From Pasteurella canis (GTDB lineage: Bacteria > Pseudomonadota > Gammaproteobacteria > Enterobacterales > Pasteurellaceae): a DNA stretch of 64,000 nt. The position numbers were made by a program, and so were the translations under genes. The notes under the pieces were generated by a model. It did not search any database. It was not told the DNA's origin and was given only the letters and a program-made list of their open reading frames with translations. Within the stretch, counting starts at the first letter, position 1, and each line of letters opens with the position of its first letter. The DNA lies in NCBI RefSeq assembly GCF_900454865.1, contig NZ_UGTV01000015.1:1116001-1180000 (forward strand), written 5' to 3'. Below are positions 35,235 to 37,804 of the stretch, piece by piece.

Positions 35235-35249
35235 CAATAGGAGCACATG

Positions 35250-35921
35250 ATGAAAAATATTGCTATTATCCCAGCCCGAGCAGGCTCAAAAGGGATTCCA
35301 GATAAAAATCTTCAACCTGTTGGAGGGCATTCTCTGATTGGACGTGCAATTTTAGCAGCTAAACAAGCTGACGTCTTTGACCAAATTGTAGTAACCTCAG
35401 ATGGTGATAACATTTTGCGAGAAGCAGAAAAATATGGTGCAACAGCTATTAAACGCCCTGCTGAACTAGCTCAAGATAATTCTAGAACAATTGATGCAAT
35501 TTTGCATGTGCTCGAAAAATTACAAGTGACTGAAGGGACTTGTACTTTACTACAACCAACTAGCCCGCTGCGCGATCATTTAGATATTAAAAATGCAATG
35601 GATATGTTTGTTAATGGTGGTGTAAATTCAGTAGTTTCTGCGTGTGAATGTGAACATCACCCATACAAAGCATTCACTTTAAGTAAAGAGCATGAGGTTT
35701 TACCTGTACGTGACATTGCTGATTTTGAGGCTGCACGCCAAACCTTACCAAAAATGTATCGTGCCAATGGCGCTATTTACATTAATGACATTGCACAACT
35801 ACTCAAAGAAAAATATTTCTTTATCCCTCCACTGAAATTTTACTTAATGCCAACTTATCGTTCAGTAGATATTGATGTGAAACAGGATTTAGAACTAGCG
35901 GAAATTTTAGCGAACAAATAG
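35250..35921 (+). CDS. neuA: CMP-N-acetylneuraminate (sialic acid) cytidylyltransferase
   Basis: 223 residues. The second of two adjacent ATGs is preferred because AGGAG (35239-35243) is 6 bases away rather than 3. It activates sialic acid with CTP for transfer onto surface glycans. The nucleotide-binding [15 protein letters not shown] is at residues 5-19, LQPTSPLR near 99 and [10 protein letters not shown] near 170 are family motifs, and the C-terminal [12 protein letters not shown] closes the metal site. Sialylation aids serum resistance in this family. It stands alone here; transport, catabolic and sialyltransferase genes are not in the window. Confidence 0.9.
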
Positions 35922-35937
35922 CCGCACGTTACCGTGA

Positions 35938-35985
35938 GTGGGCATTGCTACTGCTCAATGCAGTGACAATCCCGCTTTTTTATTT
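35938..35985 (+). terminator. neuA terminator
   Basis: GTGGG (35938-35942) pairs with CCCGC (35971-35975) and, inside it, GCATTG pairs with CAATGC; TTTTTTATTTTT follows. One side has a 9-base bulge. It separates neuA from the queCDE leader. Confidence 0.6.
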
Positions 35986-35988
35986 TTA

Positions 35989-36056
35989 CAGTGGTTCGTA
36001 AACCTCCCACTTGAACAATGGATATAACCAATCCTTGTTCGAAACAAAACTAGGAA
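35989..36056 (+). ncRNA. candidate preQ1-I-like riboswitch controlling queCDE
   Basis: AGTGG (35990-35994) pairs with CCACT (36007-36011). The loop TTCGTAAACC carries CC (36003-36004), able to form a pseudoknot with GG (36020-36021) across the A-rich tail TTGAACAA, as in short preQ1-I aptamers. The tail GAACAATGGA (36013-36022) can alternatively pair with TCCTTGTTC (36032-36040). If the aptamer holds the tail, CCTTGTT is free to pair with AACAA (36043-36047) and with the AGGA Shine-Dalgarno (36052-36055). That is a coherent OFF switch for queC, a preQ1 pathway gene. Assigned by eye, not by covariance search. Confidence 0.55.
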
Positions 36057-36062
36057 AACAAT

Positions 36063-36737
36063 ATGAATATTACAAATCCAAATAACAACCGCAAAGCAGT
36101 TGTTATCTTTTCAGGTGGACAAGACTCCACCACCTGTCTGATTCAAGCCATTCAAGAATATGGTGTCGAAAATGTGGAGACTATCACCTTCCAATATGGA
36201 CAACGCCACACTATTGAGCTAGAAAAAGCACAATGGATTGCACAAGATCTTGGTATTAAACAGACCCTAATTGACACCTCTGTCATCAAAGCCATCACGC
36301 AAAATGCCTTAATGGACGACAACGCAAAAATTGAGCAACAAGGTCATACGCCGAATACGTTTGTGGATGGTCGTAATGCATTATTTCTGCTTTATGCAGC
36401 CATCTATGCGAAAGGGCAAGGAATTCAAGACATTATCACTGGTGTCTGTGAAACCGATTTTAGTGGCTATCCCGATTGTCGAGATATTTTCATTAAGTCA
36501 ATGAATGTCACACTCAATCTTGCGATGGATTATCAATTTAATCTTAAAACACCTTTAATGTATTTGACTAAAACACAAACATGGCAATTAGCCGATGAGC
36601 TTGGTGCATTGGATTATATTCGCCAACATACGCATACTTGTTACATCGGTGTTGAACAAGGCTGTGGTGAATGTCCAAGCTGTATATTACGTGAAAAAGG
36701 TCTACAAGAATATCTATCAATGAAAAGTGCGGTCTAA
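36063..36737 (+). CDS. queC: 7-cyano-7-deazaguanine (preQ0) synthase
   Basis: 224 residues. It converts 7-carboxy-7-deazaguanine to preQ0 with ATP and ammonia in queuosine synthesis. The PP-loop FSGGQDSTT is at residues 16-24. The zinc site uses cysteines in the C-terminal [15 protein letters not shown] (near 194-208). The ATG follows TAGGAAAACAAT. queD begins 3 bases after the stop and queE soon follows, so the three form one operon for the preQ0 pathway. An uptake signal sits in the last codons (36725-36733). Confidence 0.96.
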
Positions 36738-36740
36738 ATT

Positions 36741-37166
36741 GTGTTTAAAATTGTAAAAGAGTTTAGCTTTGACATGGCACATATGCTTGATGGTCATGAT
36801 GGGAAATGTAAAAATTTACATGGGCATACTTATAAGTTACAAGTAGAACTTTGTGGTGATTTACATCAAAGTGGTCCCAAAAGAGGTATGGTAATTGATT
36901 TTTCAGATTTAAAATCTATTGTCAAACAACATATTTTAGATCCAATGGATCATGCTTTTATTTATGATTCTCATAGTGAAAAAGAAACAAAAGTTGCTGC
37001 TTTACTACAATCTTTAGATTCTAAAACCTTTGCTTTAACCACTCGTACTACTGCCGAGGAAATGGCTCGTTTTATTTTCAACTGTTTAAAATATGAAGCA
37101 CATTTGCCTATTTCTGCGATTCGTCTTTGGGAAACACCAACTTCATTTTGTGAATACGAGGAGTAA
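36741..37166 (+). CDS. queD: 6-carboxy-5,6,7,8-tetrahydropterin synthase
   Basis: 141 residues from a GTG start (MFKIVKEFSFDMAHML). It converts dihydroneopterin triphosphate to carboxytetrahydropterin, the first dedicated queuosine step. The zinc histidines lie in FDMAHML near 13 and NLHGHTYK near 27-32. The catalytic Cys is in DGKCKNLHG near residue 23. The Asp-His pair is in PMDHAFIYD near 70, and RLWETPTSFCEYEE closes the active site. It lies between queC and queE. Confidence 0.95.
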   Translation: MFKIVKEFSFDMAHMLDGHDGKCKNLHGHTYKLQVELCGDLHQSGPKRGMVIDFSDLKSIVKQHILDPMDHAFIYDSHSEKETKVAALLQSLDSKTFALTTRTTAEEMARFIFNCLKYEAHLPISAIRLWETPTSFCEYEE

Positions 37167-37174
37167 GAAACATA

Positions 37175-37804
37175 ATGCAAGGTCAACGTGTTTTACAACA
37201 GAAATATAACATTGTTGAAATATTTGAAAGTTTACAAGGAGAAGGCTTTAATACAGGGATGCCAAGTATATTTATACGCTTTGGAAAATGTAATTTAGCC
37301 TGCCCGTGGTGTGATACTCATTATAATCAGTATAGTACTTGGACACTTTCACAGATTCTCAATAAAGTGCGGTCATTTTCTAGTAAAAATATCATTATCA
37401 CAGGTGGTGAGCCGACTATTGTACCTAAACTTGATGTATTACTCGATCATTTAAAAGCCAATGGTTATTTTCTCGCAATTGAAACAAATGGTTTAAAAAC
37501 AATCCCTAGGCAAATTGACTATATTGCTACAAGTCCAAAGCGGTTATATCAGTATAAATATCAGCAACAATGCATTCCGTTTGCCCATGAAGTGCGCATT
37601 GTTGCAGATGAAAATGTATTAGATTTTTGTCAGCAAATCGAGCAACAAATCAAAGCTGAGCGTTATTATCTATCGCCTTGTGAAGTAAATAGTGAAATGA
37701 ATTTGCTCGACACTATTACACAATTAGGAATTTTAAACCAACGAGTTAATAAGCCGAAATGGCAATTGAGCATACAAGTACACAAATTAGTAGGAATTGA
37801 ATAA
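37175..37804 (+). CDS. queE: 7-carboxy-7-deazaguanine synthase
   Basis: 209 residues, a radical-SAM enzyme that contracts carboxytetrahydropterin to 7-carboxy-7-deazaguanine. The iron-sulfur motif is CNLACPWCD near 38-46, where the CxxxCxxC of QueE is apparent. IFESLQGEGFNTGMPSIFIRFGKC before it and ITGGEPT near 74 bind SAM. It starts 8 bases after queD. An uptake signal is inside (37365-37373). queC, queD and queE together supply preQ0; queF is not in the window. Confidence 0.95.
   Translation: MQGQRVLQQKYNIVEIFESLQGEGFNTGMPSIFIRFGKCNLACPWCDTHYNQYSTWTLSQILNKVRSFSSKNIIITGGEPTIVPKLDVLLDHLKANGYFLAIETNGLKTIPRQIDYIATSPKRLYQYKYQQQCIPFAHEVRIVADENVLDFCQQIEQQIKAERYYLSPCEVNSEMNLLDTITQLGILNQRVNKPKWQLSIQVHKLVGIE

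Follow-up and report, generated by a model that had tools for sequence, protein, structure and literature searches.

The window analyzed here, a stretch of 64,000 nucleotides from the genome of Pasteurella canis, harbors on its forward strand a class I aptamer for prequeuosine-1 (preQ1). The aptamer occupies positions 35990-36055, ends 7 nucleotides before the start codon of queC, and precedes genes of queuosine biosynthesis, namely queC, queD, and a queE-like gene. It is very probable that the locus represents a preQ1 class I aptamer of type I in which a hairpin that takes no part in switching is embedded between the first stem, P1, and the A-rich third loop, L3. The aptamer, the bases that mark the subtype, the hairpin, the preserved length of L3, the recurrence of this arrangement in relatives, and an accompanying cytosine signature are all read from sequence. 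A first-pass annotation of the window had proposed a preQ1-I riboswitch that shuts off translation of queCDE; the class is supported by homology, through a full-length alignment to the Rfam model RF00522, the target is borne out by profile matches downstream, and homology likewise supports the sign of control, with preQ1 lowering translation.

The 5' strand of P1, AGUGG, lies at 35990-35994 and the 3' strand, CCACU, at 36007-36011, as given by the sequence and the RF00522 alignment and, for the 3' strand, also by conservation in the genus. Between them is found the 12-nucleotide aptamer loop UUCGUAAACCUC (35995-36006), which comprises loop L1, the 5' side of the second stem, P2, and loop L2, assigned through its length, equal to that of the loop in the published type I structure (PMC8752633). 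The extra hairpin, recognized by folding and by an architecture common to relatives, stands at the turn from P1 into L3 (36012-36041). What is left after it is a single-stranded, A-rich L3 proper of 8 nucleotides, AAACAAAA (36042-36049), delimited by comparison with relatives, in which C36045, at L3 position -5, is the signature base. The tail CUA at 36050-36052 corresponds to C31, U32, and A33 in type I numbering and forms the 3' side of P2 (PMC8752633); its last base is also the first of the Shine-Dalgarno (SD) sequence AGGA (36052-36055), read directly from the sequence 7 nucleotides before the queC AUG at 36063. The stem, the 12-nucleotide loop, the A-rich tail, the AGGA, and the start codon are all present as the first-pass annotation described them. 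All five pairs of P1 are kept in six of six genomes of the window's genus, and in other Pasteurellaceae genera P1 has GUAG/CUAC against GUGG/CCAC, a natural exchange of one pair.

When a stretch of 201 bases around the locus was searched with RF00522, the alignment spanned positions 1-45 of the 45 in the model, with 30.7 bits and an expectation (E) value of 9e-5. The same locus is the best match to this model in the whole 2.34-Mb genome (E 2.5e-4), with a runner-up at E 0.075. Two weaker genome matches (L002 and L003), the only ones examined as candidates for a second preQ1 site, show no queuosine gene in the reading frames printed. The models for preQ1-II (RF01054) and preQ1-III (RF02680) give no match in the 201-base stretch at E up to 10, and the other weak Rfam names in this stretch lie far below their own cut-offs and were treated as chance.

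In the RF00522 alignment, P1 and the A-rich tail are separated by 30 additional nucleotides. These fold into a hairpin with a stem of two segments, 36013-36018/36035-36040 and 36020-36023/36031-36034, a loop at 36024-36030, and a closing wobble pair, U36012-G36041. The segment 36011-36043 folds at -11.1 kcal/mol, with a z score of -5.2, and L3 alone at -9.8 kcal/mol; the whole 80-base leader only mildly beats shuffled sequences (z -1.67), and the three hairpin pairs checked in a longer context each form with a probability of 0.99 or more. In leaders without a hairpin L3 measures 8 nucleotides, in 44 of 46 distinct sequences of one set and in 42 of 50 of a larger set, the rest of which have 9-10. 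With the insert the P1-L3 turn thus gains a helix, and the working L3 strand keeps its normal length. The published type I consensus, as described in the papers cited, has no helix inside L3, and here a hairpin occupies 36012-36041; because that helix sits inside L3, the element is filed as a variant of type I. Two other identities were tried for the hairpin and set aside. A transcription terminator is ruled out, as AAACAAAA follows the stem instead of a U run, and four DNA-uptake motifs, tested with an inverted repeat of uptake sequences in mind, occur in none of 30 long L3s.

The arrangement recurs in relatives. The 170 parsed loci include some genomes fetched twice and counts are therefore based on distinct sequences of aptamer plus L3, of which there are 80, with 30 long L3s (13 nucleotides or more) and 50 short ones; three leaders found through QueC raise the long L3s from 30 to 33. 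Dropped from the counts were L001, which is the window DNA itself, L080, L081, and L084, sequences without a recognized que gene, loci only a few bases long, and leaders not recognized by the search expression (L157 and L180). In 29 of the 33 distinct long L3s, which are not independent and fall into about twelve leader lineages by our own grouping, the insert is a single hairpin that starts 0-1 nucleotide after P1 and leaves 8-9 nucleotides; dinucleotide shuffling of the inserts yields 1.82 +/- 1.29. For the first 30 alone the figures were 26 observed against 1.86 expected. The late additions, from genomes G117, G120, and G126, amount to a fair test because they were fetched by protein alone, and all three fit the hairpin architecture, signature cytosine included. 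The hairpin sequences look unrelated between lineages, and the predicted stems, where present, range from 4 to 16 base pairs and reach -20.3 kcal/mol.

All 33 distinct long L3s have the signature C, at L3 position -5 and immediately ahead of the final four A's. Among the 50 short ones the base is A in 43 and C in 7, the latter all from Neisseriaceae-like loci, where the contexts before AAAA are TTACC, ATACC, and TTAAC. In the Pasteurellaceae leaders parsed, C and a long L3 coincide without exception, and those without a hairpin have A. AAAA precedes CUA in 80 of 80 distinct sequences, the last two A's being demanded by the search expression.

The bases of the aptamer loop and tail point to the type I subtype. 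The type I consensus includes a U before the specificity C, UU after the 5' strand of P1, and a CUA tail (PMC8752633 for the CUA), and the locus carries these marks as U36005-C36006, U35995-U35996, and C36050-U36051-A36052. The numbering follows the type I structure from Carnobacterium antarcticum (Can), which the equal loop length makes valid (PMC8752633), and by it U36005-C36006 becomes U16-C17, where C17 is the preQ1 specificity base. Positions 8, 9, 12, and 14 are invariant in all 79 distinct sequences with a 12-nucleotide loop; positions 6, 7, and 17 are fixed by the search expression, which makes their invariance uninformative. In the solved type I structure P2 consists of A12-U32 within a ceiling triple, G9 with A33, and a hypothesized C10-G34 pair (PMC8752633), the last of which later work found dispensable (PMC11625349). 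A12-U32 is possible in 79 of 79 sequences, all 79 carry C at position 14, and 70 carry C at position 15. The first-pass annotation had instead paired the loop CC at 36003-36004 with GG; this is not the P2 of the solved structure, but 76 of the 79 would allow that pairing in one or the other of two registers, and the sequence alone is compatible with it.

The distribution of the hairpin was followed in a sample of 140 Pasteurellaceae genomes searched with RF00522. In 97 of them a match exceeds the cut-off, with two more at 38.9 bits, and these matches span 44-47 nucleotides; these 99 other Pasteurellaceae genomes score 38.9-58.1 bits, and most of the leaders inspected precede queC. A further 17 genomes have a longer or partial match, and the queC leader of each contains a long L3: they are all six genomes of the window's genus, all nine of a second genus with contigs named Actinobacillus, one of three from a third genus (G070), and G071, with a [Haemophilus] ducreyi contig. 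The remaining 24 of the 140 have no strong match, and a QueC search finds queC in four of them. Three, G117, G120, and G126 of one genus, have hairpin leaders; in the fourth, G113 (L220), queC is present with no recognizable preQ1 aptamer in front. In the other 20 the QueC search gives nothing at E 1e-20, which suggests loss of the pathway in parts of the Pasteurellaceae. At least 20 of the 140 genomes are thus carriers, none of which reaches 39 bits, and most relatives are without the hairpin. The genus of G117 (g38) holds both forms, as the leader L076 from G116 has no hairpin.

Some variety was also seen among the Pasteurellaceae leaders themselves. Six of them (L070, L072, L076, L077, L091, and L100) have a P1 of GUAG/CUAC, a CUAGGU tail, and no hairpin, where other leaders have GUGG/CCAC and CUA(A)GGA, and L217-L219 are of the GUAG/CUAC type yet carry a hairpin. 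Two hairpin-less preQ1-I-like leaders, L060 and L062, are followed by a first long frame that is queD-like and starts about 145 nucleotides downstream.

The second group of carriers lies in a Neisseriaceae-like family, that of G597, represented by 83 genomes, from which 20 low-scoring or long matches and 20 low-scoring short ones were inspected, one in each batch being unparsed. A hairpin precedes queC in 12 genomes from a genus with a Snodgrassella alvi contig, in G894, and in G887, which has an Eikenella contig. It precedes queF in G899 and, less cleanly, in G892, and yhhQ in G886 and in G922, where the stem has only 3 base pairs. Among the hairpin-bearing Neisseriaceae leaders inspected and listed, none reaches the Rfam cut-off. 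In G924 the queC leader L139 has an unstructured L3 of 15 nucleotides ending in ATAAATCAAAA, with the signature C and no hairpin, and may be an intermediate form. Two Snodgrassella-like genomes carry a hairpin in the queC leader beside an insert-free queF leader (L103 and L104). Neisseriaceae-like genomes have up to four preQ1-I matches each when weak ones with E values as high as 0.3 are counted, and the leaders inspected stand before queC, queF, yhhQ, and, once, queD (L124).

No carrier was found outside the Pasteurellaceae in a sample of the class (369 genomes, E up to 0.02) or outside it in one of the phylum (398 genomes, E up to 0.005); such limits would miss many Snodgrassella-like carriers, whose matches have E values of 0.03-0.06, and the result does not imply absence elsewhere. 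Among 32 genomes from the order of G399, searched at E up to 0.05, the matches listed are 29-46 nucleotides long. A genome scan with a strict pattern returned 11 matches, 8 of them queC leaders; it found two of the Snodgrassella-like leaders and missed others, and its matches L080, L081, and L084 were taken as chance. Spread by phage was considered and set aside, a strict pattern having no match in viral contigs.

Several observations weigh against the reading of the locus as a type I aptamer with an embedded hairpin. The RF00522 score of 30.7 bits falls under the gathering score of 39, a search convention and not a structural criterion, and a default Rfam scan of the window returns nothing; the search proposed in the first-pass annotation gave a full-length match at a sub-threshold score, and none to preQ1-II or preQ1-III. 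The low score results from the insertion of about 30 nucleotides in the L3 region. Four of the 33 distinct long L3s do not fit the common architecture, namely that of H. ducreyi, with linkers of 3 and 11 nucleotides, L143, which leaves 7 nucleotides, L141, with a 3-base-pair stem, and L139, with its 15 nucleotides and no hairpin. Covariation, which the first-pass annotation had proposed as a check in related leaders, is weak for the hairpin within the genus and not above shuffles: in the six sequences of the window's genus 92.1% of cells are paired and 3 pairs have changed on both sides, a level equaled in 75 of 500 shuffles, and in eight Snodgrassella-like sequences, whose alignment is poor in the inner part of the hairpin, the figures are 84.3%, 3 pairs, and 131 of 500. 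There are also stem defects, with one broken pair in L042 and a mismatch in L217 and L219. Since the covariation is weak, the case for the hairpin is carried by its stability, by a flush architecture in unrelated sequences, and by the preserved length of L3.

Further points concern the unbound state and the start of the transcript. The bases that form P1 and P2 are present and conserved, and a pseudoknot-free fold gives P1 a probability of only 4%. In that fold, which takes in the start of queC, the SD bases 36053-36055 pair weakly downstream and are unpaired with a probability of only 0.06-0.15. Together these values mean that the unbound state is not simply one with the SD free. In addition, the U run of a terminator-like stem-loop upstream ends two bases before P1.

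The type I members from Can, H. influenzae, and N. gonorrhoeae bind two preQ1 molecules, and do so cooperatively (PMC8752633, PMC11625349). At this locus we infer ligand binding, a two-ligand stoichiometry, repression, and an effect of the hairpin. The start of the queCDE mRNA would form a pseudoknot of the H type that includes a third stem, and two preQ1 molecules, stacked on each other, are expected to bind to it. At high preQ1, the L3 strand (36042-36049) would cross the minor groove of P1, and the CUA with the first SD bases would close P2 over the ligands, upon which translation of queC would fall; when preQ1 is scarce, the pseudoknot would open. In Can, repression is indirect, the pseudoknot mattering more than burial of the SD (PMC11625349). 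The hairpin (36012-36041) would not be a switching strand and would stay folded in both states. Flush with the base of P1, it may replace a floppy turn with a fixed helix, such that L3 would enter the minor groove at the usual register. Its likely effect would be on the speed of folding and on the effective affinity for preQ1, as is the case for the P4 helix in class II and for the L3 linker in the type III element of E. coli, where a shorter linker changes the dissociation constant up to 4-fold (PMC10622847). Such a brace is the most likely role of the hairpin, though taken by itself it is about as probable as not.

The P1-L3 turn is a sharp bend at which crystal density breaks in Can chain C and Eco chain B (PMC8752633 for Can), and these breaks suggest a tolerant point of insertion. 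A serious rival to the brace builds on this, and holds that the hairpin is a neutral insertion at the tolerant turn, with no regulatory effect, kept since deletion is rare. Its position at a turn disordered in the crystal structures examined in those papers suits that idea, as do the variation of hairpin sequence by lineage, the absence of a hairpin from most relatives, the long unstructured L3 of L139, and the presence of both forms in g38. Neutrality sits poorly, however, with the retention of a flush hairpin and an L3 of 8-9 nucleotides in 29 of 33 cases where 1.8 are expected, with a C at L3 -5 that accompanies the hairpin in 33 of 33, and with the maintenance of a hairpin in all six genomes of the window's genus, even though that of L041 has a different and longer stem than the others. 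We consider neutral insertion somewhat unlikely.

The history of the hairpin was approached through a quick tree of QueC with 95 sequences, 30 of them with a long L3, which takes in neither carriers G117, G120, and G126 nor leaders of the GUAG/CUAC type. It requires at least six changes between the two forms, three of which are forced by strongly supported branches. Within the Pasteurellaceae at least four changes are needed, and a grouping of the 17 carriers as one clade is rejected (approximately unbiased test, p 0.0002), in a test on one gene and a quick tree with a group named after the tree had been inspected. Across the two families the hairpin thus appears to have changed state several times, by gain or by loss, and parsimony on one gene does not separate gains from losses. 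The unrelated hairpin sequences lean toward several gains, and the shared C leans toward something older. One ancestral hairpin form with many losses would account for the C at L3 -5 common to Pasteurellaceae and Neisseriaceae carriers and for the 7 of 50 short, Neisseriaceae-like sequences that keep the C without a hairpin. It is nonetheless rather unlikely in view of the unrelated hairpin sequences, the four or more changes among Pasteurellaceae and the rejected clade, and the matches of 29-46 nucleotides listed from the order of G399. Repeated gain leads to a wider proposal, which we regard as tentative: in both Pasteurellaceae and Neisseriaceae a third helix would have grown repeatedly and independently at the P1-L3 turn, before queC, queF, and yhhQ, converging on the three-stem design of class II. 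It would be coupled to an A-to-C change where L3 enters the minor groove of P1, and helix and C together would set the cooperativity or the speed of two-ligand binding. The three carriers found through QueC make this proposal slightly more probable than it was with 17.

The hairpin could also be a second regulatory module, such as a site for a protein, a nuclease, or a small RNA, or a temperature-responsive element. A wide range of length and stability, as seen in the stems of 4-16 base pairs reaching -20.3 kcal/mol, would be expected if outputs were tuned separately. This is improbable, since no loop or stem sequence is common across lineages, as judged by eye, the four uptake motifs are absent from the 30 long L3s, and no other Rfam family reaches its cut-off.

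The mechanism of the first-pass annotation, a full translational switch in which preQ1 binding frees 36032-36040 to mask the AGGA, is scarcely credible: its supposedly competing segments, 36013-36022 and 36032-36040, pair with one another as the hairpin (probability 0.99 or more for the pairs checked), and 36043-36047 has no complementarity to the AGGA. Within the insert the AGGA finds its complement in UCCU at 36032-36035, which is kept in L042 and could in principle pair with 36052-36055. That UCCU is locked within the stem of a hairpin of about -11 kcal/mol, and its pairing with the AGGA has a probability of 3e-4 and a cost of about 6 kcal/mol (-12.3 versus -18.1). It is missing from L039, L040, L041, and L043, four of the other five genomes of the genus, most relatives have no such segment at all, and the pairing is possible in 2 of the 33 distinct long L3s.

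The preferred reading, a type I aptamer with an embedded hairpin, can be set against the known preQ1 riboswitches. With the type I members of RF00522, from Carnobacterium antarcticum, H. influenzae, and N. gonorrhoeae, the locus has in common P1, the 12-nucleotide loop, the U-C before the 3' strand of P1, the A-rich L3, the CUA tail, an SD that overlaps P2, and queuosine genes downstream (PMC8752633). It differs from them in the hairpin of about 30 nucleotides between P1 and L3, in C for A at L3 -5, and in its sub-cut-off Rfam score. The preQ1-II riboswitches likewise contain an embedded helix, P4, whose stem sequence may not be conserved (PMC11262651, PMC4971525, PMC11625349), but they have another fold (HLout) and another binding site and are described as limited to Bacillota (PMC11625349), so that the likeness is one of architecture and not of kinship. 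Deletion of P4 has a minor effect on binding in class II, where P4 matters for kinetics (PMC11625349); its sequence may be unconserved although its secondary structure is conserved, with flanking adenines that matter (PMC4971525). Two papers describe this hairpin as crucial or key to recognition of the ligand (PMC11262651, PMC4971525). The E. coli type III element before yhhQ is similar in having a longer L3, with a linker, GGUUAAUC, that ends in C before the A run (PMC10622847). Its own traits are a linker of 8 nucleotides, which is not described as helical, A-C in place of U-C, and burial of the whole SD (PMC10622847).

The class, the target, and the occurrence of type I in H. influenzae and N. 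gonorrhoeae were already known, and what is new is the L3 hairpin as a predicted structural variant of preQ1-I. The literature, covered by titles, by the beginnings of abstracts, and by parts of papers, contained no mention of such a hairpin; the main comparative surveys lay outside that coverage, and a prior mention is possible. Work on very small ligand-binding RNAs uses the preQ1-I aptamer as a standard model. Orthologous genes are preceded by leaders that either have or lack the hairpin, whose stems measure 4 to 16 base pairs, and this natural series makes the effect of an embedded helix on a two-ligand pseudoknot switch directly testable. Default Rfam annotation also misses this group of preQ1 riboswitches, as none of the 20 Pasteurellaceae carriers reaches the cut-off.

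Downstream of the aptamer, all on the forward strand, queC occupies 36063-36737 and matches TIGR00364 with 271.6 bits, over the cut-off, as well as PF06508. It is followed by queD (36741-37166; TIGR03367, 104.8 bits, over the cut-off) and by the gene for a QueE-like protein of the radical S-adenosylmethionine type (37175-37804; PF04055). The latter protein is short, at 209 amino acids, and falls below the cut-off of all five QueE models listed, the best being TIGR04508 with 97.9 bits against a cut-off of 240.

Directly upstream of the que operon, at 35247-35921 on the same strand, lies a cytidylyltransferase gene of the NeuA/PseF kind, assigned through PF02348 and a TIGR03584 match of 139 bits, below the cut-off of 205.7. 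Between this gene and the aptamer is the terminator-like stem-loop (35936-35977, forward strand), with its U run at 35976-35987, a folding energy of -22.6 kcal/mol, and a z score of -5.2. A similar upstream stem-loop is present in L042 (z -5.5) and L043 (z -5.9), with none in the 60-base folds of L039, L040, and L041. Either queC is reached by read-through of the terminator or a promoter overlaps the stem-loop. The sole promoter-like match (9 of 12 positions) ends at 35992 and is unlikely to be correct because the transcript would then start inside the aptamer. The 5' arm of the stem-loop holds AGUGGG, which repeats the 5' strand of P1 and is complementary to CCCACU at 36006-36011.
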